Positions 45,807 to 62,385 of a stretch of DNA of 64,000 nt are shown here, piece by piece. Under the pieces are notes generated by a model that saw nothing but the letters and a program-made list of their open reading frames with translations, was not told the origin of the DNA and searched no databases. Origin of the DNA: Actinomycetospora sp. NBRC 106378 (GTDB lineage Bacteria > Actinomycetota > Actinomycetes > Mycobacteriales > Pseudonocardiaceae). The position numbers and the translations under genes were made by a program. The DNA is taken from contig NZ_BSTT01000015.1 of assembly GCF_030269685.1 (NCBI RefSeq), positions 62,001 through 126,000 of the forward strand. Reading direction: 5' to 3'. Numbering within the stretch: position 1 is the stretch's first letter; every line of letters begins with the position of its first letter.

Positions 45807-46730
45807 TTGGCGGACACCGTCGCCACCGTCGGGCGCGGCCGGGAGACCGAACTCCTCCAGGCCGCGCTCGACGGCGGTACCCATGTCGTCCTCGAGGGCC
45901 CGCCGGGCACCGGGAAGTCGACGCTGCTCCGCGGCGTCGCGCACTCCCGCAGCATCGGCTTCCACTTCGTCGAGGGGAACGCCGAGCTGACGCCGGCGCG
46001 GTTGGTCGGGCACTTCGACCCGGCCCGCGTGCTGGCCGACGGCTACGTCGAGGAGATCTTCGTCGACGGGCCGTTGGTGTCGGCGCTGCGCGAGGGCGGG
46101 CTGCTCTACATCGAGGAGCTCAACCGCGTCCCCGAGGAGACCCTGAACGTCCTCATCACGGTGATGAGCGAGGGTGAGCTGCACGTGCCCCGGCTGGGGC
46201 GCATCGCCGCGGAGCCCGGCTTCCGCATGGTCGCGGCGATGAACCCGTACGACGCGGTCGGCACCGCCCGGATCTCCGCGGCGCTGCACGACCGCACCTG
46301 CCGGATCGCCATGGGCTACCAGTCCGCGGCGGACGAGACGCAGATCGTGGCGGGGCGGGCCCCGGTGACCCCCGACGGCTGGCGCGAGAAGGCCGTCGAC
46401 CTGGTCCGCCGGACCCGGGAGCACAAGGACCTGCGCAGCGGCTCGTCGGTGCGCGGCGCCATCGACCTCGCGCGGGTCACCGTGTCGCTGGCCGCCGCCC
46501 GCGACCGGGCGGTCGACGACTGGCGGGTCGGGCTCGACGCCGCCACCGTCGCGCTGTCGGGTCGCATCAAGGTGATCGAGTCGGCCCGGCGCACGCCCGA
46601 GGAGGTCATCCGCGAGCTCTACGAGGCGGTGTTCGGGCGGGAGCCGTCGGAGTCCGACCCGAGCCAGGACTCCGGGGACGATGATGCGTCGGGGGGAGCC
46701 AGAGCCCGCCCGGCGCGGGCAGCGGGGTAG
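45807..46730 (+). CDS. MoxR-type AAA+ ATPase
   Basis: 307 aa. Walker A GPPGTGKST near residue 35, Walker B LLYIEELNR near 95, sensor 1 (MVAAMNPYDAVGT), and a C-terminal acidic tail. MoxR ATPases remodel or load cofactors, paired with VWA proteins, and a VWA-domain gene follows. TTG 45807 with upstream GGAACGGAG is the annotated start; no ATG or GTG fits better. The stop is inside the start region of the next gene. Confidence 0.8.
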   Translation: MADTVATVGRGRETELLQAALDGGTHVVLEGPPGTGKSTLLRGVAHSRSIGFHFVEGNAELTPARLVGHFDPARVLADGYVEEIFVDGPLVSALREGGLLYIEELNRVPEETLNVLITVMSEGELHVPRLGRIAAEPGFRMVAAMNPYDAVGTARISAALHDRTCRIAMGYQSAADETQIVAGRAPVTPDGWREKAVDLVRRTREHKDLRSGSSVRGAIDLARVTVSLAAARDRAVDDWRVGLDAATVALSGRIKVIESARRTPEEVIRELYEAVFGREPSESDPSQDSGDDDASGGARARPARAAG

Positions 46731-46807
46731 ACCGGCCGTCCCGGCAGAAGGCGGCGCCCACGACGTCCCGCTCGGACCTCGCGCGTCGGCACGAGGACTT
46801 CGAGTCG

Positions 46808-47632
46808 GTGTCCCCGCAGGTCGGGGAGATCGACCAGGAGGCCTTCGACGCGCTGATGCGCGAGGACCCGGGTGCGGCGATGGAGCTCCTCGTCGACCTG
46901 ACGAAGGCGACCGACGAGACGCTGCGGGAGAAGGCCCGCCGACTGGCGGGCACGATCCTGCTCGAGCGTTCCAAGGTCGGGCCGTCGCGGGCCCGGGGGT
47001 CCTCGAAGCTCCGGCTCCGCCCGGCCGACCGGGGCGGGGACCTCGACGTCGACGCGTCGATGGAGGCCCTCACCGAGGCGCACGCGGGGGGTCTGCCGCC
47101 GCACCTCGAGGACCTGTACGCCGTCGACTGGGCCCAGCCGGGGATCGCGCTGTGCCTGCTCGTCGACACCTCGGGGTCGATGACGGGCGGCCGGCTCGCG
47201 GCGGCCGCCCTCACCGCGGCCGCGTGCGCGTGGCGGGCGCCGGAGGAGTTCGCGGTGGTGTCCTTCGAGCGGGAGGCGACGGTACAGCGCGGGCTGCACC
47301 AGCCGACCCCGCCGGAGACGCTGGTCGACCAGCTCCTGGCCCTGCGGGGGCACGGCGTCACGGGGCTGTCGGCCGCGATGCGGTCGGCCGCCGACCAGCT
47401 CGTGGCGGCCCGGTCGTCGCGTCGGGTGACCGTGCTGCTCTCCGACTGCCGGTCCACCGACGACAAGGACCCGATCCCGCTCGCGGCGTCCCTGGACGAG
47501 CTGCTGATCCTCGCGCCGGCCGACGACGCGTCGGACGCCGTCGCGCTGGCCGAGGCGGTCGGCGCACGGGTGGAGACGATGGCCGACCCGTCGGACGCCC
47601 CGGCCGCCCTGGCGAGGCTGCTCGACGCGTAG
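46808..47632 (+). CDS. VWA (von Willebrand A) domain protein, apparent N-terminal frame problem
   Basis: 274 aa from GTG 46808. The MIDAS motif DTSGSM near residue 120 and TGLSAAM further on define a VWA domain of the CoxE-like group, partner of MoxR. Protein-like sequence in the same frame continues upstream (SRSDLARRHEDFES) without any start codon down to a stop at 46682. An ATG pair at 46681/46684 would join this frame only if one base were removed, and a G6 run (46691-46696) lies between. So either translation starts at 46808 or a frameshift exists. Confidence 0.7.
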   Translation: MSPQVGEIDQEAFDALMREDPGAAMELLVDLTKATDETLREKARRLAGTILLERSKVGPSRARGSSKLRLRPADRGGDLDVDASMEALTEAHAGGLPPHLEDLYAVDWAQPGIALCLLVDTSGSMTGGRLAAAALTAAACAWRAPEEFAVVSFEREATVQRGLHQPTPPETLVDQLLALRGHGVTGLSAAMRSAADQLVAARSSRRVTVLLSDCRSTDDKDPIPLAASLDELLILAPADDASDAVALAEAVGARVETMADPSDAPAALARLLDA

Positions 47633-47644
47633 GTGGCTTCGCCC

Positions 47645-47686
47645 TGTGAGTACTTTTCCGTGTCCCGGCACGGAAAAGTACTCACA
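47645..47686. terminator. Perfect 18-bp palindrome between VWA and carrier-protein genes
   Basis: TGTGAGTACTTTTCCGTG and its exact complement around TCCCGG. It is notably AT-richer than its surroundings. It lies between convergent gene ends, so a two-way terminator is the simplest reading; a dispersed repeat is another. Confidence 0.7.
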
Positions 47687-47700
47687 GACGCGGAGCGCAC

Positions 47701-47961
47701 CTAGGCCGGCTCGGCGCCCATCTCGGCGAGGAAGTCCGCCATCGACGCGACCGAGCGGAACCGCTCGATGTCGAAGTCGTCGAGTGGCAGCTGCACGCCG
47801 AAGGTCTCCTCGAGCGCGACGATCAGCGTCACGAGCGCGAGCGAGTCGATGAGCCCGGCCTCGAGGAGGTCCTCGTCGACCGAGGGGACGTCGATCCCGG
47901 CGCGGTCGCTCACCACGTCCGCCACCTGGGCACGGAGCGCGGCCGTGGTCTCGGTCAACAT
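47701..47961 (-). CDS. Acyl/peptidyl carrier protein
   Basis: 86 aa. Four-helix carrier with the phosphopantetheine serine in LIDSLALVTLIVALEE near residue 41. Sequence QLPLDDFDIERFRSVASMADFL is typical of helix 3/4. The ATG at 47961 shares its A with the stop of the adenylation gene (TGATG), so the two are made together. It would carry the amino acid activated by that enzyme. Last gene of the cluster before a strong palindrome. Confidence 0.85.
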   Translation of the reverse strand: MLTETTAALRAQVADVVSDRAGIDVPSVDEDLLEAGLIDSLALVTLIVALEETFGVQLPLDDFDIERFRSVASMADFLAEMGAEPA

Positions 47962-49547
47962 CACTCGCTCTCCTTCGGGGCCGGCCGGAAGCGCTCCCGC
48001 AGCACCGGCCGATCGATCTTTCCGTTCACGTTCTTGGGCAGCTCGTCGAGCACGTCCCACTTCGCCGGCACCATGTAGCGCGGCAGCAGGGCCGTGACCG
48101 CGCGCCGCATGTCGTTCACGGGCAGGGATGCCCCGGCCGCGACGGAGTACGCGCAGCAGATCGTCGTGCCCTCGAACCCGCCGAGGTCGACGCCGACCAC
48201 CGCGCACTCCTTGACCCCGGTCACTGTGTTGACCGCGGTCTCGACCTCGCCGAGCTCGATCCGGTACCCGCGCGACTTGATCTGCGAGTCGGTCCGGCCG
48301 AGGAAGTGCACGACGCCCTCGTCGTCGACCCGCGCGAGGTCACCGGTCTTGTAGATCCGCCGGCCGTCGGGCCCGGTGACGAACGCGGCGTCGGTCTTCT
48401 CCTGGTCGCGCCAGTAGCCCGGCGACAGCCCGACCCCGCCGATGTACAGCTCGCCGATCTCCCCGACCGGGGCCGGGGCGCCGTCCTCCAGCACGATCAG
48501 CGACTCGCCCGCGCACGGCACCCCGATCGGCACCGGCACGGACTCGTCGGCCGGCACGGCGGGGACGTCGTGGTACGACGACGCGATCGTCGCCTCGGTG
48601 GGCCCGTAGAGGTTGGTGAACCGCACGTGCGGCAGCTTCCGCATCCAGTGCGCGAGGATCGGCGTCGGCAGCACCTCGCCGCACCACAGCAGGCGCTCGA
48701 GGGCCGGGAAGTCGTGTTCGGCGACGGCCTCGAACCGCGCCAGGTAGGTGAGCACCGAGGGCACCGAGAACCACTGCGTCAGCTGGCGGTCGCGGATGAA
48801 CGCGGCGGTCTTCCGGGCGTCGAGACCCAGCGACGCCGGCACGAGGTGCAGCTCCGCGCCGGCCGCGAGCGTGGCGTAGATGTCGAACGTCGACAGGTCG
48901 AAGTGCAGGGGCGGGTGCGCGGAGATGCGGTCGCCCGGCTTCGTGCCGAAGTGCCCGAGGGCCCAGTCGACGAACGCCGACACCATGTCGTGCGTGATCA
49001 TCACGCCCTTCGGGATCCCGGTGGAGCCCGAGGTGAAGAGCAGGTGCGCGAGGGGGTCCTTCCCGGGGACGCTGCCGGGTCGGGTCGCGTCGAGCGCTTC
49101 GATGTCCGACCGGGAGAACGCGGAGGTGAACCGCTCCCCCTCGAGGGGCGACTCCAGCGACCCGACCGTGAGGTCCGAGAGCCCCTCGGCGACCAGGCCG
49201 TCGACGAGCTTCGTGGCCGTGGCGTCGGCCAGCAGCACCGACGGCTCGGCGGAGCGGATGATGCGGGCGACCCGGGTCGCCGGCGACGCCGAGTCGACCG
49301 GCACGTAGACCGCACCGGCCTTCAGCGTGCCGATCAGTGAGGCGATGGTCCACGGCGTCTTGGCCGCGAGCACGCCGACCCGGTCGCCCGGGGCCACGCC
49401 CCGGTCGACGAGCATCGTGGCGATGCGGTCGGTGACGGCGTCGAGCTCGGCGTAGGTCAGCCGCTCCACGCCGTCCGGACCGATCAGCGCCGTCGACCCC
49501 GGCGACCGCTCGGCCGAGGCGACGAGGAGGTCCTCGAGACGGGTCAT
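47961..49547 (-). CDS. Stand-alone amino-acid adenylation enzyme
   Basis: 528 aa, one adenylation domain without condensation or carrier parts. Core motifs: LLFTSGSTGIPKGVMITH (A3), FDLSTFDIY (A4, with the Asp that contacts an amino group), NLYGPTEAT (A5), YKTGDLARV (A7), SRGYRIELGEVE (A8) and the NGKID lysine (A10). Architecture resembles DltA and free NRPS loaders. It would load an amino acid on the adjacent carrier protein. Substrate not predicted. ATG 49547 overlaps the upstream stop (ATGA). Confidence 0.85.
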   Translation of the reverse strand: MTRLEDLLVASAERSPGSTALIGPDGVERLTYAELDAVTDRIATMLVDRGVAPGDRVGVLAAKTPWTIASLIGTLKAGAVYVPVDSASPATRVARIIRSAEPSVLLADATATKLVDGLVAEGLSDLTVGSLESPLEGERFTSAFSRSDIEALDATRPGSVPGKDPLAHLLFTSGSTGIPKGVMITHDMVSAFVDWALGHFGTKPGDRISAHPPLHFDLSTFDIYATLAAGAELHLVPASLGLDARKTAAFIRDRQLTQWFSVPSVLTYLARFEAVAEHDFPALERLLWCGEVLPTPILAHWMRKLPHVRFTNLYGPTEATIASSYHDVPAVPADESVPVPIGVPCAGESLIVLEDGAPAPVGEIGELYIGGVGLSPGYWRDQEKTDAAFVTGPDGRRIYKTGDLARVDDEGVVHFLGRTDSQIKSRGYRIELGEVETAVNTVTGVKECAVVGVDLGGFEGTTICCAYSVAAGASLPVNDMRRAVTALLPRYMVPAKWDVLDELPKNVNGKIDRPVLRERFRPAPKESE

Positions 49548-50557
49548 CGCGGGACGACCCCCGCCCGGCGGAACACCTCGCCGATGTGGTCGAGCTCCTC
49601 GGCCGACGGCGGGATGTCCAGCACGAAGACCCGCGTGCCCTGCGCCGCGTAGTGCGCGATCGCGGCGGCGACGCGGTCGTAGGAGCCGACCAGGTACGGG
49701 CAGAAGGTCTGGTAGTTCTGGAACGGCCCGAGCCAGAACGGGTCGGGCTCGCCGGAGCCGTCGTCGACGACCTCCTGGCCGCGAGCGGCCTCCGAGAGCT
49801 GCGCGTGCCACGACGAGTCACTGGCGCGCATCGCCATCGAGTGCGCGATCTGTCCGCGGCGGTCGGTGGGGAACCGCTCCTCGGCGACCTTCCAGGCGTC
49901 GGCCGTGTCCTCGCGCGCGACGATCCCGACCCGGACACCCCCGCCGTCGGGAGCCTCCCCGGTCTCGCGCCCGAGCGGCTCGGGGTAGCGGATCGGCACC
50001 GCACCGAGCGCCTCGGCGGCGGCACGCCCGGCCGGGGACGACCCGGAGATCAGCACCTCCGGCATCAGCTCGGCCGGCAGCGCGGGCGCGAGGCGCAGGT
50101 TGTGCACCTGGTGCCAGCGACCCTCGTGGGTGACCGTCTCCCCGCGGAGCAGGGCCATCAGGATCTGCGTGTACTCGGTGGTGCGGGCGTAGCGGTCGTC
50201 GTGCTCGGTGGGGTCGCCGAGCGCGAGGAGGTCGTTGCGGAACCCGCCGGCCAGCATGTTGAGGTGCACCGCCCGGCCGTGCAGGTAGCCGAGCGAGCTG
50301 ACCATCGACGCCGCGGTGAACGGGTGCATGTACACCGGCTGCACCGCGACCAGCGGCGCGAGCCGCTCGGTGGCGGCGATGGCGTGCTGCGCGACGAGCC
50401 ACGGGTCGGCGATGCCGTTGTCGGTGTAGACGAGCATCCCCGTGCAGCCCGCGGCCTCGCTCCAGCGCGCCACCTCGGCGACCGCCTGCGCGTACTCCCC
50501 CGTCGGCACGTCCTTCGACTGCGGGCAGGTGGAGTAGATCTGGACCCCACCGGTCAC
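49544..50557 (-). CDS. LLM-class flavin-dependent monooxygenase
   Basis: 337 aa, luciferase-like TIM barrel. N-terminal VQIYSTCPQSKDVPTGEYAQAV, VAVQPVYMHPFTAASMVSSLGYL, and LNMLAGGFRNDLLALGD are typical of the alkanesulfonate-monooxygenase-like branch. It uses reduced FMN or F420. In NRPS-like clusters such enzymes oxidise carrier-bound intermediates, which suggests N- or C-oxidation here. GTG 50557 overlaps the carbamoyltransferase stop; GGAGGGG lies upstream. Confidence 0.8.
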   Translation of the reverse strand: MTGGVQIYSTCPQSKDVPTGEYAQAVAEVARWSEAAGCTGMLVYTDNGIADPWLVAQHAIAATERLAPLVAVQPVYMHPFTAASMVSSLGYLHGRAVHLNMLAGGFRNDLLALGDPTEHDDRYARTTEYTQILMALLRGETVTHEGRWHQVHNLRLAPALPAELMPEVLISGSSPAGRAAAEALGAVPIRYPEPLGRETGEAPDGGGVRVGIVAREDTADAWKVAEERFPTDRRGQIAHSMAMRASDSSWHAQLSEAARGQEVVDDGSGEPDPFWLGPFQNYQTFCPYLVGSYDRVAAAIAHYAAQGTRVFVLDIPPSAEELDHIGEVFRRAGVVPR

Positions 50558-52326
50558 GACGGGGTCCCCTCCACCACGAATCCCTCGATGTAGAGGCGGT
50601 CGAGCGCGATCCGTGCGAAGGTGTCGACGGCCGTCGCCGGGTCCATGATCAGCGGCTGGCCCTTGACGTTGAACGACGTGTTCACGACGCAGCCGGTGCC
50701 CGTCCGGTCCCGGACCTTCTCCAGCAGCGACGCGAACGTCGGGTTGAGGCCCGGCGTCACGGTCTGGATCCGCGCCGAGTCGTCCTCGTGGACGATGCCC
50801 GACAGCGCCGCCTTGGCCTCCGGGCGGACGTGCGCGGTGCAGAGCATGTAGTGGTCGGGGTCGAAGCCGCGGGTGACGAAGAGCCGGTCGCGGTCGTCGA
50901 CGTGCACGGCCGGCGCGAACGGACGGAACGCCTCGCGGAACTTGACCGCGGAGTTGATCCGGTCCTTGATCCGGTCGCCGTCGGGCCGGGCGACGATCGA
51001 GCGGTTGCCCAGCGCCCGCGGCCCGAACTCCATCCGCCCGTGGAACACGGCGATGATCCGGTCGGCGGCGATGTCGTCCGCGGCGGCGGCGAGGTACTCG
51101 TCGGTCATCCCGACCTCGCGCCACTGCAGGTCGGGGCGCGCCTGCAGGACCGCGCGCACGTCGTCGGCGGAGTAGCGCGCGCCCAGGTACGGGTCGAACG
51201 GCGTCGCGACCGGCTGCAGGTCCTCCGCGACCGCGTAGGCGGCGCCGAGGGCGGTGCCGTCGTCGCCGGAGGCCGGCTGCACGAACAGGGCCTGCAGCGC
51301 CGGGAGGTCGGCGATCGACTGGTTGGACTTGCAGTTGAGGAACGTGCCGCCCGCGAGGGCCAGGTTCGTCTCGCCGGTCTTCTCCAGCCAGTGCCCCACG
51401 AGGTCCACCAGCAGGTCGGTCAGGCGCTCCTGCATCGACGCGGCGAAGTCGGCCTCGTCGCGCTGGATCGAACCGTCGGGCTTCGCCGGCGTGAAGGTCT
51501 GCTCCTCGAGCAGCGCCCGCGCGTGCGGGTAGCCGTGCTCGGCGTCGGCGAGTGCCCCGCTCGGCCAGTCGATCACGACGCTGCCCTTGTCATGATCGAA
51601 TCGCGTGAGCTTCTGGAACACCTCGCGATAACGCGACGGGTCGCCGTAGGGCGCGAGGCCCATGACCTTGTACTCGTCGTTGTTGAACTGGAATCCGAGG
51701 AAGCGGGTGCCGATCGAGTACAGGATTCCCAGCGACGACGCGATCGGCTGCGTGTGCAGCTTCTCCAGTTCCGTCGCCGGCCCTTCCCCGTCGCCGCGCC
51801 CGCCCCGGGAGAACCGGAAGATCGACAACGAGTCGACCTCGCCCATGCCGTCGGAGACGACGGCGAGGCCGCGGTCGAACCCACTGGGGACGATGGCGGA
51901 GAGCGCGTGCGCGCGGTGGTGCTCGACGGGGGTCAGCGTCGCGGCGAGCTGCGGCCAGCCGGCGTCGGTGAGGGCGTCACGCACCGTCTGCGAACTCAGC
52001 ACCTCGTCGAAGTACTGCCTGGCGAGCACGAACGCCCGCCGGTGCCGGTCGTAGTCGAACCCGTGGGCGACCACGTCGACGTCGTCGGCGGCCACGCCCG
52101 CCTCCGCCAGGCACCACGCGATGGCCTGGCGGGGCAGCGCCCCGGTGCCCTTGTCACCGTCGAAGCGCTCCTCGGAGGCCGCGGCGACGAGCACACCGTC
52201 GACGATGATCGCGGCGGCGCTGTCGAGACCCTGGGTGATGCGTGCATCGAGGGGGTCGATGTCCGGATTCGTCTCGCGGAGTCTCCGCTGGGAATTCGGG
52301 AGACCGCTGAGTCCGAGAACGATCAT
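50554..52326 (-). CDS. NodU/CmcH/TobZ-family carbamoyltransferase
   Basis: 590 aa. N-terminal Kae1-like part with LGLSGLPNSQ, HHRAHALSAI (metal histidines near residue 145) and a glycine-rich DGTALGAAYAV; C-terminal YrdC-like segment with GCVVNTSFNVKGQPLIMDP. These enzymes use carbamoyl phosphate and ATP to carbamoylate a hydroxyl on a sugar or a natural product (NodU, TobZ, novobiocin NovN). ATG 52326 has GGAGGG upstream; the alternative 13 codons earlier does not. The gap of 116 bp to the glycosyltransferase gene may hold a second promoter. Confidence 0.88.
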   Translation of the reverse strand: MIVLGLSGLPNSQRRLRETNPDIDPLDARITQGLDSAAAIIVDGVLVAAASEERFDGDKGTGALPRQAIAWCLAEAGVAADDVDVVAHGFDYDRHRRAFVLARQYFDEVLSSQTVRDALTDAGWPQLAATLTPVEHHRAHALSAIVPSGFDRGLAVVSDGMGEVDSLSIFRFSRGGRGDGEGPATELEKLHTQPIASSLGILYSIGTRFLGFQFNNDEYKVMGLAPYGDPSRYREVFQKLTRFDHDKGSVVIDWPSGALADAEHGYPHARALLEEQTFTPAKPDGSIQRDEADFAASMQERLTDLLVDLVGHWLEKTGETNLALAGGTFLNCKSNQSIADLPALQALFVQPASGDDGTALGAAYAVAEDLQPVATPFDPYLGARYSADDVRAVLQARPDLQWREVGMTDEYLAAAADDIAADRIIAVFHGRMEFGPRALGNRSIVARPDGDRIKDRINSAVKFREAFRPFAPAVHVDDRDRLFVTRGFDPDHYMLCTAHVRPEAKAALSGIVHEDDSARIQTVTPGLNPTFASLLEKVRDRTGTGCVVNTSFNVKGQPLIMDPATAVDTFARIALDRLYIEGFVVEGTPS

Positions 52327-52442
52327 CGACTGGCCCTCCACGGCGACGTGCGGATGTTCTCCCACTATGACGTGCGAGCACGCTCCCGGTTCATCGGGGG
52401 GTCACCGATGTCCGATTCACGAGGTCGGGGCAGACGCGCCTT

Positions 52443-54440
52443 TCACACCGTCGCCGCCGGTTGCTCCGCCCCGGGGAACCCGTGCCCGAGAACCGTCACG
52501 AAAGCATGTTGGTAGGCGTCCACCATCGCGTCCTCGGTGTAGAGCGCGAGGGCGCGCTCACGACCGGCGCGACCGAGTCGGGCGAGTTCCGCGCGATCGT
52601 CGAGCACCCGCCCGAGGGCCTGCGTCCACGCCGGGACCGTCACCGGCTCGACGACGACGCCGGCCGCCCCGAAGTCGAGCATCTCGGGTACCGAGCCGCT
52701 GGCCGACGCCATCACCGGCATGCCCCGCGTCATCGCCTCGACCATCACCAGCGGGAAGGCCTCGAAGCCGCTCGGCACGCACAGCACGTCGGTCTCGGCG
52801 AACGCGTGGTCCGGCCCCGGGGACACCCCGCGCCACCGGACCCGGCCGCGCAGGTACTCCGGCGTCTCGGCCTCCATCGCGACCCCGTCGGGTCCCTCCC
52901 CGAAGATGTCGAGCGTCCACTCGTCGGGCCGCGCGAGGGCGTCGAGGGCCCTGATCAGCAGCGTCGTGTTCTTGTAGGTCTTGAGGCGGGTCAGCATGCA
53001 GAACCGCACCGGACCCGTCGTCGGGACCTCGCCCAGCGGCCGCCCGGGCGCGAGGCCGTTCGGCGCGACCATGACCCGTTCGGTCAGCCGCTGGTGACGC
53101 GTGAGGTCGGTGTGGTGCTGCCGGGAGAGCACCAGGAGACCGTCGGCCGTGCGCAGGGCCCGCGCCTGGGCCTCGGAGTAGGTCGGGTGGTCGAGTTCGG
53201 CCGGGTCGTGCGCCGCCGGGATCCAGTACCGCTTCTGTCCGGCCGCCCGGCCGAGCGCCCGCCACGCCGTCGCGAAGCCGATCTCGGTCTTCGTGCAGCC
53301 CCCGACGACGATCGCCTCGTCGGTGGCGGCGACGTCGACCACGGGCTGCCACCAGGGCTGCATGAGCATCCGGACCCGGGGGTCGAGCTCGCTGATGTAC
53401 TGCCCGAGGTGCTGCAGGCACACGAGGGTGACCGGGTGCCCGCGCTCGACGAGCTCGTTGGCCAGCACCACCCGCTGCCGCTCCGCGCCGCCCGGGCGCA
53501 GGCCGTTGGTGATCACGACGACGGCGGGCCGTCCCCCGGCCTGCGCGGCCAGCGCGTCCAGCCGCGCCCGTCGCGGGGCACGCTTCGAGCGCTGCACGCG
53601 GTCGAGCAGCGTGGAGCCCGCCGCGTAGAGCGAGCCGCGCCCCGCGTTGTGGTCCATGCCCAGCACCATGACCTGGGCGGAGCGCAGCAGGTCGCCGCCA
53701 CGCATGGAGGCGAGCGGGTCGTCGGCGACGGTGCCGCCGCTGGCGTGCCGGACCTGCGGGCCGTGTGCGGGGTCGTCGACCAGGCGCAGGTCCCACCCGC
53801 GCCGCCGGGCGTTCGGCTGCCAGGTGGCGTCCTCGCCGTAGACGAAGAACTGCTCGTCGAACTCGCCCAGCGCGTTCCAGGCGTCGCGGGCGATGAACAG
53901 GGCGCAGCCGGTGAGGTAACCGTCGACGTGCTCCGGCGGCGCGGGGTAGAGGTCGCTGACGGTGCGGCCGCGCAGCCGCTTGGCGTACCCGGCCGAGTTG
54001 AGCAGGTTGCGCACCACACCCTGCTCGCGGTGGGCGACGTCCCAGGGCAGGTCGCGGCCCTCGGGGTCGAGCACCGTCGGGGAGACGACGGCGACGCCGG
54101 GCTCGGCGAGCACCTCGCGGGCGCGCGTGCAGGGCCCGAGGAGCTCGGCGTCGGGATTGAGCTGGAGCACGTCGCACTCCGGCACCTGCGCCATGAGCTT
54201 GTTCATCGCCGCGATGTAACCGAGGTTGAACTCGGAGAAGGTCCACGTGACGTCGGGCCGCGTCGACGCGAGCTCCCGCACCGCGGGCGACCCGGAGGAC
54301 GCGTTGTCCCAGACGTGCACACGCGCCTCGGGCAGCCACTTGTCGACGCTGGCGAGCGCGCGGTCGAGCAGGTCCGCCCGCCGGTAGGAGACGATCAGGA
54401 CCGCCAACTCACGTGACACCACGGTCGTCGATCGTGTCAC
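52443..54440 (-). CDS. Fused glycosyltransferase: GT2 domain plus GT4 domain
   Basis: 665 aa. Residues ~10-270 are a GT2 domain: LAVLIVSYRRADLLDRAL, WDNASSG, NPDAELLG, and FFVYGEDATWQ near residue 205. After a linker, residues ~295-650 form a GT4 (GT-B) domain: ITNGLRPGGAERQRVVLANEL, MLTRLKTYKNTTLLIRAL, and the donor loop PSGFEAFPLVMVEAM. Both halves seem intact. GTG 54440 is preceded by GGGGGAG. It could add two sugars in sequence, or polymerise a short glycan. Confidence 0.85.
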   Translation of the reverse strand: MTRSTTVVSRELAVLIVSYRRADLLDRALASVDKWLPEARVHVWDNASSGSPAVRELASTRPDVTWTFSEFNLGYIAAMNKLMAQVPECDVLQLNPDAELLGPCTRAREVLAEPGVAVVSPTVLDPEGRDLPWDVAHREQGVVRNLLNSAGYAKRLRGRTVSDLYPAPPEHVDGYLTGCALFIARDAWNALGEFDEQFFVYGEDATWQPNARRRGWDLRLVDDPAHGPQVRHASGGTVADDPLASMRGGDLLRSAQVMVLGMDHNAGRGSLYAAGSTLLDRVQRSKRAPRRARLDALAAQAGGRPAVVVITNGLRPGGAERQRVVLANELVERGHPVTLVCLQHLGQYISELDPRVRMLMQPWWQPVVDVAATDEAIVVGGCTKTEIGFATAWRALGRAAGQKRYWIPAAHDPAELDHPTYSEAQARALRTADGLLVLSRQHHTDLTRHQRLTERVMVAPNGLAPGRPLGEVPTTGPVRFCMLTRLKTYKNTTLLIRALDALARPDEWTLDIFGEGPDGVAMEAETPEYLRGRVRWRGVSPGPDHAFAETDVLCVPSGFEAFPLVMVEAMTRGMPVMASASGSVPEMLDFGAAGVVVEPVTVPAWTQALGRVLDDRAELARLGRAGRERALALYTEDAMVDAYQHAFVTVLGHGFPGAEQPAATV

Positions 54441-54455
54441 GCGCTCCCCCGGCGA

Positions 54456-55517
54456 CTACTGGCGGGCGGCGTGGGAGACGAGCCACTCGCCGTCGAGGTG
54501 GCTGCACAGCGCGGTGGTGGAGCTCAGCAGCCCGAGCACGTTCGCCTCGGCGTGGACGAGGGCGCGCGCGTTCTTGCGCACCAGCACGCCCGGGCGCCCG
54601 ATCAGCCCCGCGGTGACCGGCTCGAGGCGGCCCTGCACCGCCGACGCGCCCTGCGCCGCGGCGTGGGCGACGAGGTGGTCGAGCACCGGGTCGGGGTCGG
54701 TGCCGGTGACGCCCACCTGCAGCACCTCGGCCACCCCGCCGGGCGCGAGCAGGTAGAGGAACCAGCCGAGCACGCGCCCCTGCGGCCCGCGCACCACCCG
54801 CGCCCACAGCGCGCCGCGCCCGAGCCGCCGGACCTCGGCGAACACCCATTCCAGGTACGCGGGGTCGTAGTCCGGACGGAGCCGCAGCCGACGACCCGCC
54901 GTCGCGACCTGGTCGGCGAGCGTCTCGGCGGTCAGCTCCTCGGTCGACCCGGCCGGCCGCGGCGGTGGCGGGACCAGGCGGGCACCGACGACGTCGACGG
55001 GGCGGGAGAGCAGGCGGGCGGCCCGACCGAGGCGCGCCGAGCGACGACCCACGAGCGTCCCCGCCGTCGCGCCCGGGGCGAGCACGCGGAACCACGCGAT
55101 CGACTGGCCGGCGAGCTCCTGGCCGCCGAGCCCGAGCCAGAGGTTCCGGGAGTCGTCGTTCGCCCGGTCCGCGACCGTGAACTCCTGCGGCCCGCCGAGC
55201 AGCTTGCGGTTGAGCAAGGCGCCGACGCCCTTCGAGCGCCAGTCGGGGTGCGCGACGAGGTTGCTGGAGACGGCCATCCGCACCTTCCGCCCGTCGAGGA
55301 CCATCCGGCGGGTGCTCGCGGCGATGAAGCCGACGATCCCGCCGTCGGGACCCTCGTGCACGAGCGAGGGGATCTCGGGGTCCGCCCACGGGTCCTCGAG
55401 GAGCACGCGGCGGAGGTAGGGCGCCACGTGCTCGGCCGAGGCGCCCCCCATGACCTGGGCGAACAGGGTGCTGACCTGCGGGAGGTCACTGCGCTCGAGC
55501 GCGCGGATACCGGCCAC
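54456..55517 (-). CDS. GNAT-fold acyltransferase-like protein
   Basis: 353 aa. N-terminal GNAT domain (IRALERSDLPQVSTLFAQVMGG ... MAVSSNLVAHPDWRSKGVGALLNRKLL, containing the acetyl-CoA loop R-S-K-G-V-G-A). The second half (from ~200) resembles a duplicated GNAT/FemAB-like region with YLEWVF and GWFLYLL. It might transfer the activated aminoacyl or an acetyl group to a sugar. A leaderless TAGAGT promoter lies before GTG 55517. First gene of the cluster; TetR ends 9 bp upstream. Confidence 0.7.
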   Translation of the reverse strand: MAGIRALERSDLPQVSTLFAQVMGGASAEHVAPYLRRVLLEDPWADPEIPSLVHEGPDGGIVGFIAASTRRMVLDGRKVRMAVSSNLVAHPDWRSKGVGALLNRKLLGGPQEFTVADRANDDSRNLWLGLGGQELAGQSIAWFRVLAPGATAGTLVGRRSARLGRAARLLSRPVDVVGARLVPPPPRPAGSTEELTAETLADQVATAGRRLRLRPDYDPAYLEWVFAEVRRLGRGALWARVVRGPQGRVLGWFLYLLAPGGVAEVLQVGVTGTDPDPVLDHLVAHAAAQGASAVQGRLEPVTAGLIGRPGVLVRKNARALVHAEANVLGLLSSTTALCSHLDGEWLVSHAARQ

Positions 55518-55528
55518 CCCCGCACTCT
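55518..55528 (-). promoter_or_regulatory. Leaderless-type promoter of the GNAT-led cluster
   Basis: TAGAGT followed by five bases and the GTG at 55517, overlapping the stop of the upstream tetR gene. Confidence 0.45.
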
Positions 55529-56117
55529 ACGGAGCACAGGCCGCCAACCCGGCGAGCAGCTCCTCGACGACGGTGGGCTCCACGAGGTTCTCGGTGACGA
55601 CGAGGCCGGGCATCAGCGTGATGACCAGCCTCGCGACGGCGGCGGGGCTCGTGCCGGGCGCGACCAGCCCGGCGTCGATCCAGCGCCGGACGAGAGCCTC
55701 GACGTGCCCGGCGACGGCGCGGTAGTAGGCCTCCACCCGTGCCCGGAGGTGCTCGCGGCGCAGCGCCTCGGTCCACGCCTGCATGGCGAGCCGGGAGAGG
55801 TCGTAGGGCTCCCCGCGGCGCGCCTGCACCGTCGCCACGAGCTGCTCGACCAGCCGGGCGGGCCCGGGCAGCGGGTCCTCGTCGAGCAGCGTCGTGAAGA
55901 CCGCCTCCGCGGCGGCGAGCGCCTCGTCCACGGTCGCGTCGATCAGCTCGTCCTTGCCGGCGAAGTAGCGGTAGACCGCGTTCGCGGACATGCCGCTGGC
56001 CTCGATGACCTGGTCCATGGACGTGGCGTGGAAGCCGTCGCGCGAGAAGCAGGACCAGGCGCTCTCCAGGACGTGCCGACGACGGCGGTTCCAGGTCTCG
56101 GTGGTCAGGCGCGGCAT
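55527..56117 (-). CDS. TetR-family regulator
   Basis: 196 aa. N-terminal HTH (HVLESAWSCFSRDGFHATSMDQVIEASGMSANAVYRYFAGKDELI, residues ~15-58) and a helical ligand domain of TetR_C type. The leaderless promoter TAGGGT-N6-ATG is flanked by an operator half-site CGAGAACG. It is divergent from the four-gene catabolic operon and 9 bp upstream of the NRPS-like cluster on its own strand, so it may control both. Confidence 0.85.
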   Translation of the reverse strand: MPRLTTETWNRRRRHVLESAWSCFSRDGFHATSMDQVIEASGMSANAVYRYFAGKDELIDATVDEALAAAEAVFTTLLDEDPLPGPARLVEQLVATVQARRGEPYDLSRLAMQAWTEALRREHLRARVEAYYRAVAGHVEALVRRWIDAGLVAPGTSPAAVARLVITLMPGLVVTENLVEPTVVEELLAGLAACAP

Positions 56118-59868: not shown

Positions 59869-62262
59869 TCAGGCCTGGGCGCTGTCCGGCGTGTCCTCCG
59901 TGATCGCCTTGCCCGCGTACTCCGGGCCCGCCTGCTGGCGGGTCGCGGGGTCGGAACCGTTCGCACCGTGGATGGCGCGCCACACCGTCTCCGGGGTGAG
60001 CGGCATGTCGATGTGGTGGATCCCCAGGTGGGACACGGCGTCGATCACGGCGTTGTGCACCGCCGGGGTCGAGCCGATCGTGCCGGACTCCCCGATGCCC
60101 TTGGCCCCGATGGGGTTCAGCGGCGTGGTCGTCTCGGTGTTGGAGACCTCGAACGACGGCAGGTCCGCCGCGGTCGGGATCGTGTACGAGGCGAGGTTGC
60201 CCGAGGTCGGGTTGCCGTCCTCGTCGTAGGTCACCCGCTCGTAGAGGGCCTGCGAGATGCCCTGGGCGATGCCGCCGTGCTGCTGCCCGGCGACCAGCAT
60301 CGGGTTGAGGATGATCCCGCAGTCGTCGACGGCGACGTGGCGGCGCTGCTTGACGAAGCCGGTGTCGAGGTCGACCTCGACGACGGCGATGTGGGTGCCG
60401 AACGGGAACGTCGAGTCGCCGGCCTTGAAGTCCAGCTCCTGCCGCATCTCGTGGCCCCGGCCGTCCTCGTACCCGGAGCCGTCCTCGGCCGCCTGCGCGA
60501 TCTGCGCCCAGGTGATGACCTTGTCGCCGATGCCGCGGACGCCGAACCCGTCGTCGGAGTGGTCGATGTCCTCGACCGCCGCCTCGAGCAGGTGCGCCGC
60601 GATCTCGCGCGCCTCGGCCACCAGCTCCTGCGAGGCGTTGTGGATCGCCGTGCCGCCGGTCTGCAGGGACCGGGAGCCGAGCGTGCCGGCGCCGCTGCGG
60701 ACGAGCTCGGTGTCCGACTGGACGAGCTTGATCTTCTCCATGGGCACGCCGAGCACCGAGGACGCGAGCTGGCAGAACGCCGTCTCGTGGCCCTGGCCGT
60801 GGGCGGAGGTGCCGGCCATGACGGTGAAGGTGCCGTCGGGGTGCGCCTGCGCGGAGCCGTACTCGCCGTCGAGGCCGAGCGGGGCGGTGACCTCGACGTA
60901 GGAGCCGACGCCGATCCCGAGCGCGATGCGGTCGCCGGACTCGCGGCGGCGCTTCTGCTCGGCGAGCAGCGCGTCGTAGCCCGCCGCCTCCTTCGCCGCG
61001 TCCGCCGCCTTCTCGTGCTCGGCGGTGTCGTAGTTCGCGCCGGTGAGGGTGGTCAGCGGGTACTGCTCGGGCTGCAGGTAGTTCTTGCGCCGGATCTCGA
61101 GCGGGTCCATCCCGATCTCGTCGGCGGCCATGTCGATGATCCGCTCGAGCAGCTGCGTCGCCTCGGGCCGCCCGGCCCCGCGGTAGGCGCCCACCGTGGT
61201 GGTGTTGGTGGCGACGGCCTTCCAGGTGAAGTCGATCGCCGGCAGGTCGTAGACGCCCTGGGCGAGGAGCTGCGTGAGGCTCGGGAGGACCGCGCCGATC
61301 GCCGGGTAGGCCCCCGCGTCGCCGACCGCGGTGGCGCGCAGGCCGACGAACGTCCCGTCGTTCTTGACGCCGAGCTCGACCCACTGCACCTGGGCGCGCC
61401 CGTGGACCATCGAGAGCATGTTCTCGGAACGGGTCTCGTTCCAGCGGACGGGACGGCCGAGCTTCTGCGCGGCGCGCGCGATGATCGAGTACTCCGAGTA
61501 GGCGAAGGCCTTCGGGCCGAAGCCGCCGCCGACGCGCGGGGCGATGACGCGGACGTCCTCGCCGTCGACGCCGAGGTCGCCCGCCATCTGGTCGCGCAGG
61601 CCGTGCGGGGTCTGGGTGGAGGCCCAGAAGGTCAGCTTGCCGTTCTCGCCGGGCTCGACGACGACGGCGTTCGGCTCCATCGGGACGCCCGCGAGCTTCT
61701 GGTTGTGGAACTTGGCCTTCACCACGACGTCGGCGTCGTCGAAGATGCCCTCGACCTCGCCGGTGCCGGCGCCCGCCACCATGTTCGACTCGGTGCCCTC
61801 GAAGAGCAGCGGGGCGTCGTCCGCCATGGCCGCCTCGATGTCGGTGACGGCGGGCAGCGGCTCGATGTCGGGGAACACGGTCTCGGCCGCGTCGATCGCC
61901 TCGCTCGCGGTCTCCGCGACCACGATGGCGACGATGTCGCCGACGTGGCGGACCTTGCCCTTGGCCAGCAGCGGGCGGTTCATCGTCTCGGGGACGACGC
62001 CCGGCAGGCCCGGCCGGTCGTTCAGCTCGAGGTCGGCCGCGGTGTACACCGCGACGACGCCCGGCATCCCCTTCGCCTCGTCGACGTCGATGTCACCGAG
62101 CGTGCCGTGCGCGATGGGCGAGCGGACGAAGAAGGCGTGCAGCGCGCCCTCGACGGGCATGTTCCCCGTGTAGACCCCGGCGCCGGTGATCAGCTCGCGG
62201 TCCTCGGTGCGCTTGACCGGGTGGCCCAGGATCGAGCCACCGGAATGGGTCGTGACGCTCAC
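59869..62262 (-). CDS. Molybdenum hydroxylase large subunit (CoxL form II-like)
   Basis: 797 aa, xanthine-dehydrogenase/CO-dehydrogenase large-subunit family. The active-site loop reads AYRGAGR near residue 370, the form II signature, not the AYRCSFR of proven CO dehydrogenases. PRVGGGFGPKAF and GTSAHGQGHETAF for the molybdopterin and GAKGIGESGTIGS with the catalytic Glu near the end are also present. GTG 62262 has GGAG seven bases upstream. The medium (FAD) and small (2Fe-2S) subunits are not adjacent. A -10-like TAGTGT lies at 62306-62311. Confidence 0.88.
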   Translation of the reverse strand: MSVTTHSGGSILGHPVKRTEDRELITGAGVYTGNMPVEGALHAFFVRSPIAHGTLGDIDVDEAKGMPGVVAVYTAADLELNDRPGLPGVVPETMNRPLLAKGKVRHVGDIVAIVVAETASEAIDAAETVFPDIEPLPAVTDIEAAMADDAPLLFEGTESNMVAGAGTGEVEGIFDDADVVVKAKFHNQKLAGVPMEPNAVVVEPGENGKLTFWASTQTPHGLRDQMAGDLGVDGEDVRVIAPRVGGGFGPKAFAYSEYSIIARAAQKLGRPVRWNETRSENMLSMVHGRAQVQWVELGVKNDGTFVGLRATAVGDAGAYPAIGAVLPSLTQLLAQGVYDLPAIDFTWKAVATNTTTVGAYRGAGRPEATQLLERIIDMAADEIGMDPLEIRRKNYLQPEQYPLTTLTGANYDTAEHEKAADAAKEAAGYDALLAEQKRRRESGDRIALGIGVGSYVEVTAPLGLDGEYGSAQAHPDGTFTVMAGTSAHGQGHETAFCQLASSVLGVPMEKIKLVQSDTELVRSGAGTLGSRSLQTGGTAIHNASQELVAEAREIAAHLLEAAVEDIDHSDDGFGVRGIGDKVITWAQIAQAAEDGSGYEDGRGHEMRQELDFKAGDSTFPFGTHIAVVEVDLDTGFVKQRRHVAVDDCGIILNPMLVAGQQHGGIAQGISQALYERVTYDEDGNPTSGNLASYTIPTAADLPSFEVSNTETTTPLNPIGAKGIGESGTIGSTPAVHNAVIDAVSHLGIHHIDMPLTPETVWRAIHGANGSDPATRQQAGPEYAGKAITEDTPDSAQA

Positions 62263-62385
62263 ACATGCTCCTCTGCGGTGATGATCACTCCGGTCTCCGT
62301 CTTGCACACTAGACGAATACTGTGACCCCCTGCACAGGTCGTTTCCGCACGCCGAAAGCGCCCTCGGATGCGGAGTTGCGCGCAA

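Follow-up and report, generated by a model that had tools for sequence, protein, structure and literature searches.

In DltABCD-type D-alanylation, a stand-alone adenylation enzyme and a carrier feed an envelope polymer; in butirosin biosynthesis, BtrI serves as the carrier and BtrJ as the ligase; and the wbe locus of Vibrio cholerae O1 has carrier and ligase genes as well, although to our knowledge its tetronate is not derived from an amino acid, and we know of no luciferase-like monooxygenase or carbamoyltransferase in that locus. BtrO is described as a luciferase-superfamily enzyme that oxygenates an amino-acid side chain (PMC2922099), this butirosin side chain is described as being used for 1-N-acylation of the aminocyclitol (PMC11405602), and the perosamine amino groups of V. 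cholerae O1 are described as being acylated with tetronate (PMC3441752). MupA, the α-hydroxylase of mupirocin biosynthesis, is described as requiring flavin mononucleotide (FMN), an FMN reductase and a substrate bound to a carrier protein (PMC10952193). Here we compare these systems with six genes of Actinomycetospora sp. NBRC 106378, which lie in a 64-kb stretch of contig NZ_BSTT01000015.1 (the window, to whose positions all coordinates refer). They encode an acyl/peptidyl carrier protein (ACP), an adenylation enzyme (A), a luciferase-like monooxygenase (LLM), a carbamoyltransferase (CT), a glycosyltransferase (GT) and a GNAT-type acyltransferase (GNAT).

We propose, with a probability of about 0.6, that these genes form a cassette that decorates a cell-surface or extracellular polysaccharide with an acyl group. 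In this scheme, A would activate one amino acid and load it onto ACP, and LLM, supplied with FMNH2 by a reductase encoded elsewhere, would oxygenate the carrier-bound aminoacyl group in the manner of BtrO and MupA. CT would then add a carbamoyl cap, most simply onto the new hydroxyl, in a slot where other phyla have a formyltransferase, small GNAT or methyltransferase, and the tandem GNAT would take the completed acyl group off ACP and transfer it to a sugar, onto an amino (or hydroxyl) group. The linked GT would help to build the acceptor glycan in this clade only, and its step would not be general, since seven of the nine genomes of a second clade, described below, have no close GT homologue. 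Directly observed are the genes present, their conservation, the co-occurrence of GNAT with the core across genomes, the polysaccharide surroundings of several relatives and the conserved pocket of A. That an amino acid is loaded onto the carrier and oxygenated there follows from the enzyme families and their context, while we infer which amino acid is used, where it is oxidised and capped, what accepts the acyl group and in which order the steps run.

The logic shared with butirosin is the occurrence together of a carrier, a ligase, a luciferase-family oxygenase and an acyltransferase, with LLM likened to BtrO by description only. Unlike butirosin, the cassette has no pyridoxal phosphate decarboxylase (BtrK) among the seven window proteins scanned with Pfam, its A resembles that of a nonribosomal peptide synthetase (NRPS) with a pocket code of its own, CT and GT are present, and the acceptor is probably a polysaccharide. 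As for a dedicated flavin reductase, the acidobacterial one has no match in the window, and such a gene is present in four of eight acidobacterial core loci. As far as the published account of V. cholerae O1 goes, the likeness there is that an acyl group encoded in the locus is attached to a polysaccharide sugar through the amino groups of the latter. LLM and MupA would have in common the luciferase fold, the two-component FMN type and an ACP-bound substrate, again likened by description only, whereas the substrate of MupA is described as a β-ketoacyl polyketide chain. Compared with DltABCD, the cassette has an additional oxygenase and carbamoyltransferase, GNAT is the candidate transferase, and A and ACP fall under the curated cut-offs. 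Each step has a precedent and carrier-protein-based acyl decoration of glycans is a described kind of system. In searches of the open-access PMC literature we found no description of the gene set, of its spread over four phyla or of its swapped caps, and the initial annotation of this stretch had not recognised the set either.

The distribution of the genes was followed in 18 Actinomycetospora genomes and 23 genomes from other genera, with locus counts resting on tblastn. An LLM orthologue occurs in 16 of the 18 (73-100% identity), and the 23 others gave weak matches only (best E 1.6e-25; 23-36% identity among the matches listed). GNAT is found in exactly the same 16 genomes (split in two at contig ends in G013) and in none of the 25 that remain, including all 23 outside the genus, which supports its earlier designation as the likely transferring enzyme. 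LLM, A and ACP are spaced by -4 to +8 bp in each of the 15 orthologous loci fetched besides the window, and because this tight spacing recurs, their grouping is not due to chance. In clade I (the window and six loci), GNAT-GT is divided from CT-LLM-A-ACP by a spacer of 87-122 bp. In clade II (nine loci at a different genomic site), the order is CT-GNAT-LLM-A-ACP in three, GNAT-LLM-A-ACP in four and CT-LLM-A-ACP in two. LLM-A-ACP is therefore the core, with GNAT mobile and CT optional; the latter is present in 12 of 18 genomes and is missing from four of the 16 that carry LLM (G004, G005, G007 and G008). The genes flanking the clade-II loci (ABC-class ATPase, DNA ligase-like and siderophore-interacting proteins) were read by eye as unrelated and were not retained as partners. 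Across the Actinomycetota, at least one of 396 genomes, the host's own, was positive at E<=1e-40, a lower bound given that five candidates were scored per genome and that the search evidently did not sample any further LLM-carrying member of the genus.

The two clade-II genomes whose operon is devoid of GNAT (G011 and G012) have it elsewhere, adjoining a GT2-GT4 fusion. In G012, the genes around this pair (L099) encode an O-antigen ligase-type protein, a flippase and a GT4 protein, all identified with Pfam, and an epimerase homologue; the locus in G011 (L124) is similar by eye. GNAT-GT is a separable block, and the link between its members is not rigid, since about 2.1 kb separates them in G013 (L028, 500-2611).

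The adenylation enzyme passes the amino-acid adenylation model TIGR01733 (377.3 bits, cut-off 317.4). Its pocket code, DLFFLCLIAK, was read by motif alignment from D217, L218, F221, F260, L287, C289, L313, I321, A322 and K510, which we take to be the Stachelhaus positions under their usual names and numbering, and none of the ten varies among the 16 rows from the genus. The eight variable positions were compared with 14 other core A proteins (two from the genus and 12 from outside it): all eight match in ten of these, seven of eight in three, and six of six readable positions in one truncated copy. The pocket is kept where overall identity falls to 35% (L053) and 31% (L054). By comparison, 19 other adenylating domains from the fetched loci, at 24-36% identity, match at 0-4 of the eight positions (one weak match in L021, which failed the length and E filter, was left out), and the two that reach 4/8 come from loci of Tritonibacter and Rhizobium in which an LLM relative is present as well. 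Since the pocket is conserved down to 31% identity, the core probably keeps one amino-acid substrate throughout. One A domain in each of the Tritonibacter and Rhizobium clusters has the common pocket DVFVLCTVAK.

DltA models come next among the full-length matches of A (299.3 bits), and DltC is the best curated model for ACP (46.1 bits), as would be expected if A and ACP aminoacylated an envelope polymer in the manner of Dlt, with LLM and CT as bystanders. We regard this as very improbable: both curated cut-offs (476 and 68 bits, respectively) are missed, on which grounds membership of the Dlt family was rejected, and LLM directly adjoins A in every one of the 15 fetched genus loci.

The best relatives of LLM, both in the PDB (1m41) and among curated models, belong to the SsuD family, so that an alkanesulfonate or sulfone monooxygenase serving sulfur supply, next to the other genes by chance, had to be considered. 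LLM lies far under the SsuD cut-off (TIGR03565, 104.6 versus 518.2 bits), and in a profile alignment with 1m41 the SsuD residues Cys54, His228 and Arg297, presumably of the active site, are replaced by I49, G211 and Y282. G211 is constant in 17 of 17 rows of the LLM family and Y282 in 15 of 17. An SsuD-type alkanesulfonate monooxygenase was rejected on the cut-off and these residues, and the tight spacing of LLM and A throughout the fetched genus loci further argues against the sulfur-supply reading, which is already largely refuted and which we consider the least probable of all those weighed here. In the LLM tree, two of the three outgroup rows, L019 and L020, look mistranslated (L020 contains a stop), so that neither the rooting nor the marks depending on these rows were used and the comparison relies on 1m41 and L018; the AlphaFold model of LLM (mean predicted local distance difference test score 61) was not used.

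Outside the genus, the species-genome scan with the LLM alignment, which used two short peptide patterns and is blind to diverged members, found relatives in Azospirillum halopraeferens and A. oleiclasticum (57% and 61% identity) and in metagenome-assembled genomes of an acidobacterium (53%) and a member of the Binataceae (49%). A and ACP adjoin LLM in all four. In both Azospirillum species the order is polysaccharide deacetylase, NAD-synthase-like protein, GNAT, LLM, A, formyltransferase and ACP, with sugar-transferase-like genes at the same loci (by eye or tblastn). The acidobacterial locus (L053) reads ATP-grasp, LLM, A, ACP, hexapeptide transferase and the start of a GT4-like gene, and the Binataceae locus (L054) A, ACP, LLM and CT (42%), with GNAT on the opposite strand. 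The two Azospirillum genomes are the only positives among 82 from the order of A. halopraeferens, and the Binataceae genome is the only one among 297 of the Binatota.

In the Acidobacteriota, 13 of 347 genomes have LLM matches at E<=1e-50, and eight of 14 fetched stretches (L142-L149) contain LLM-A-ACP, the A match spanning two frames in L143 and L145; a fifteenth place among the matches listed is L053 itself. These eight core loci hold a tandem GNAT (5/8), a flavin reductase (4/8), Wzx-like (5/8), GT4 (5/8), FemAB-type (5/8) and Wzc/kinase-like (3/8) proteins; some of the stretches are short contigs, and these absences are therefore lower bounds. The surroundings of LLM-A-ACP in L142, like those of GNAT-GT in L099, were tested with Pfam for Wzx/Wzy-type genes, and others are similar by tblastn or by eye (Pfam was run on example proteins from L142, L147, L148 and L149). 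In L142 the reductase (PF01613) lies beside ACP and has homologues in three more of the eight loci, as would fit a two-component FMN oxygenase, since such an enzyme needs one.

The slot between A and ACP, taken by the formyltransferase in Azospirillum, holds a small GNAT in six of the eight acidobacterial core loci (partial in L142) and a methyltransferase in one (L148). Such variation fits capping of either oxygen or nitrogen, and N-hydroxylation is therefore a possible variant of the polysaccharide cassette, in which LLM would N-hydroxylate the amino acid and the N-hydroxy-aminoacyl-ACP would receive a carbamoyl, formyl or acetyl cap, giving a hydroxyurea or hydroxamate, siderophore-like and possibly metal-binding at the cell surface. 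O-formyl groups would be unusual, and CT, the formyltransferase of the two Azospirillum loci, the small GNAT and the methyltransferase can all act on nitrogen. On the other side, the structurally solved relatives of CT include TobZ, named an O-carbamoyltransferase, and the luciferase-family enzymes MupA and BtrO are described as hydroxylating an acyl chain or a side chain (PMC10952193; PMC2922099). We consider this variant unlikely.

A broader form of the polysaccharide reading would extend it across phyla: a building block in which a conserved amino acid is oxygenated on a carrier, fitted with interchangeable caps and placed on a sugar by a tandem GNAT, yielding an acyl substituent that is not known from any bacterial glycan. 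The caps would be carbamoyl in Actinomycetospora and the Binataceae, formyl in Azospirillum, and acetyl or methyl in the Acidobacteriota, and the substituent would possibly be an O-carbamoyl-hydroxyaminoacyl amide or an N-hydroxyurea. We advance this extension tentatively, at rather less than even odds.

Several observations weigh against a polysaccharide as the destination. First, within clade I, GT is the sole link to polysaccharides; no flippase or polymerase gene adjoins the window cluster, and GT lies beside the core in none of the nine clade-II stretches. By whole-genome search, the close GT homologue is missing from seven of the nine clade-II genomes, and GT is therefore not needed for the core. 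Second, the plasmid-borne relatives of LLM (41-52% identity; Gemmobacter, Tritonibacter, Rhizobium and two Streptomyces) are found in clusters resembling those of free natural products. All five adjoin adenylating enzymes or NRPS, and three lie near a phosphopantetheinyl transferase (PPTase), neighbours which fit a carrier-bound substrate but equally a free natural product. In the plasmid collection, the closest CT found (59%) is encoded on a Streptomyces plasmid, within a natural-product cluster of hydrazine type. Third, six of the 14 acidobacterial LLM stretches (L150-L155; LLM 32-51%) have no A domain nearby, although LLM is accompanied by an ACP-like match in L151 and by a flavin-reductase match in L153. 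Finally, tblastn of the window with the flavin reductase of the Acidobacteriota and with the PPTase of Gemmobacter gave no match, and the genomes are not independent samples, so that the co-occurrence of LLM and GNAT rests on few independent losses (G009, and G003, which is 83% complete).

Much of this would be expected of a free glycosylated, carbamoylated and oxidised amino-acid metabolite released by GNAT, close to the NRPS-like product that the initial annotation had in mind, and the acyl-CoA dehydrogenase, halogenase or P450 genes also present in the natural-product-like clusters of LLM relatives point in the same direction. That reading is nonetheless less likely than decoration of a glycan: in Azospirillum and several Acidobacteriota, core relatives that share the A pocket have polysaccharide genes around them; in addition, the GNAT-GT pair of congeners stands within a polysaccharide locus, and no exporter or resistance family was detected with Pfam among the seven scanned window proteins. 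We therefore judge a free metabolite improbable. The chemistry first proposed appears largely right, in that a stand-alone carrier bearing an activated amino acid, together with an oxygenase, a carbamoyltransferase and a sugar partner, is supported; what differs is the product proposed.

The view of the six genes as one pathway is also not supported, since CT is dispensable, GNAT-GT separable and GT a member of a paralogous family (53-94% identity among the copies compared), some of whose members stand in polysaccharide loci. The second copy in the window genome (69%, L097) adjoins a flippase and an epimerase in such a locus. G009 lacks the LLM orthologue, CT and GNAT but retains a GT (73%), which lies between CoxL and AmtB, close to where the window cluster sits, and is separated from CoxL by one 182-amino-acid (aa) open reading frame without a Pfam family; the order CoxL, open reading frame, GT and AmtB looks as though the cassette had entered or left the site. 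Elsewhere in G009 (L100, 5020-10447), a GT2-GT4 paralogue adjoins a P450-like protein, named by eye, and an A-domain protein that stands alone and has the pocket DAWFLGNVVK.

The families originally assigned to the six genes hold up, with two of them in part below Pfam cut-offs. The GT4 domains of GT exceed the cut-off and its GT2 half is slightly under it (22.8 versus 23.3 bits), while GNAT falls under that of Acetyltransf_9 (20.1 versus 25). The AlphaFold model of GNAT has two GNAT domains per chain, a tandem GNAT of the Eis/N-myristoyltransferase fold. CT carries Carbam_trans_N (126.9 bits, 1.6e-36; cut-off 24) and Carbam_trans_C (194.2 bits, 1.6e-57; cut-off 27), and matches the PDB chains of TobZ, GdmN and the novobiocin carbamoyltransferase along most of its length (E 1e-64 to 1e-84); it shares both domains with these enzymes and with NodU, but misses the NodU equivalog NF041651 (135.4 versus 1000 bits). 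The absence of condensation and thioesterase domains, already reported for this set, was confirmed by Pfam among the seven scanned window proteins, so that the genes do not qualify as an NRPS.

The Streptomyces cluster with the closest CT (Streptomyces sp. NBC_00868 plasmid, L021, 5103-16773) encodes GNAT, AMP-binding, tRNA-ligase-like, FAD oxidoreductase and SidA-type monooxygenase proteins, as well as a carrier, an acyl-CoA dehydrogenase, a PPTase and the CT 59% identical to that of the window; we take it to resemble hydrazine-type chemistry with a carbamoyl step. An aldo-keto reductase-like gene, identified by eye, lies near CT in the Binataceae genome (L054, 13231-14238) and in the acidobacterial one (L064, 347-1450). 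In the Gemmobacter, Tritonibacter and Rhizobium loci (L058, L059 and L060), adenylating enzymes and a PPTase accompany an LLM relative (48-52%), and some also have a halogenase or P450.

As first annotated, the six genes are co-oriented; they fill 47701-55517, all on the minus strand, and are transcribed in the order GNAT, GT, CT, LLM, A, ACP (Table 1). Coupling by overlaps of 1-4 bp, which had been given for most junctions, applies to three of five (ACP/A 1 bp, A/LLM 4 bp and LLM/CT 4 bp) and not to CT/GT (116 bp) or GT/GNAT (15 bp). Because the GT/CT gap of 87-122 bp recurs in the seven clade-I loci, the two blocks that it divides may be under separate promoters; no sigma-70-like site was found in the gap, and the scan for promoters and terminators was empty.

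Table 1. Positions of the cassette genes and of the principal intergenic gap within the 64-kb window.
Feature	Position	Strand	Length	Family and evidence
Stand-alone acyl/peptidyl carrier protein (ACP)	47701..47961	-	86 aa	PP-binding PF00550, 50.7 bits, 2e-13; Ser40 within GLIDSLAL motif
Stand-alone adenylation enzyme (A)	47961..49547	-	528 aa	AMP-binding, 260 bits, 3e-77; AMP-binding_C
Luciferase-like monooxygenase (LLM)	49544..50557	-	337 aa	SsuD-related; Bac_luciferase, 101.8 bits, 6e-29
NodU/TobZ-type carbamoyltransferase (CT)	50554..52326	-	590 aa	Carbam_trans_N and Carbam_trans_C above cut-offs
Intergenic gap GT/CT	52327..52442		116 bp	
GT2-GT4 fusion glycosyltransferase (GT)	52443..54440	-	665 aa	Pfam
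Tandem-GNAT acyltransferase (GNAT)	54456..55517	-	353 aa	

A TetR gene at 55527-56117 was dropped as a cassette member, being present in one of 15 fetched orthologous stretches. By eye, the cassette is flanked on one side by genes for a MoxR-type ATPase and a VWA protein and on the other by one for a CoxL-like hydroxylase (45807-47632 and 59869-62325). At 47646-47685, where the ACP and VWA genes converge, lies a perfect 17-bp inverted repeat (GTGAGTACTTTTCCGTG), whose arm has 44 copies in the genome at no more than two mismatches versus none for a backwards control. Some copies are about 130 bp from contig ends, and the repeat is perhaps a terminator-like hairpin or an assembly-breaking repeat.

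In summary, if decoration of polysaccharides by this cassette and its relatives is correct, members of at least four phyla would write oxidised, capped amino acids onto polysaccharides by means of carrier chemistry usually classed with antibiotics. This would account for stray 'NRPS-like' predictions and give a substrate to an uncharacterised branch of luciferase-like monooxygenases, and it would offer a four-protein system for asking whether GNATs transfer acyl groups directly from ACP to a glycan.

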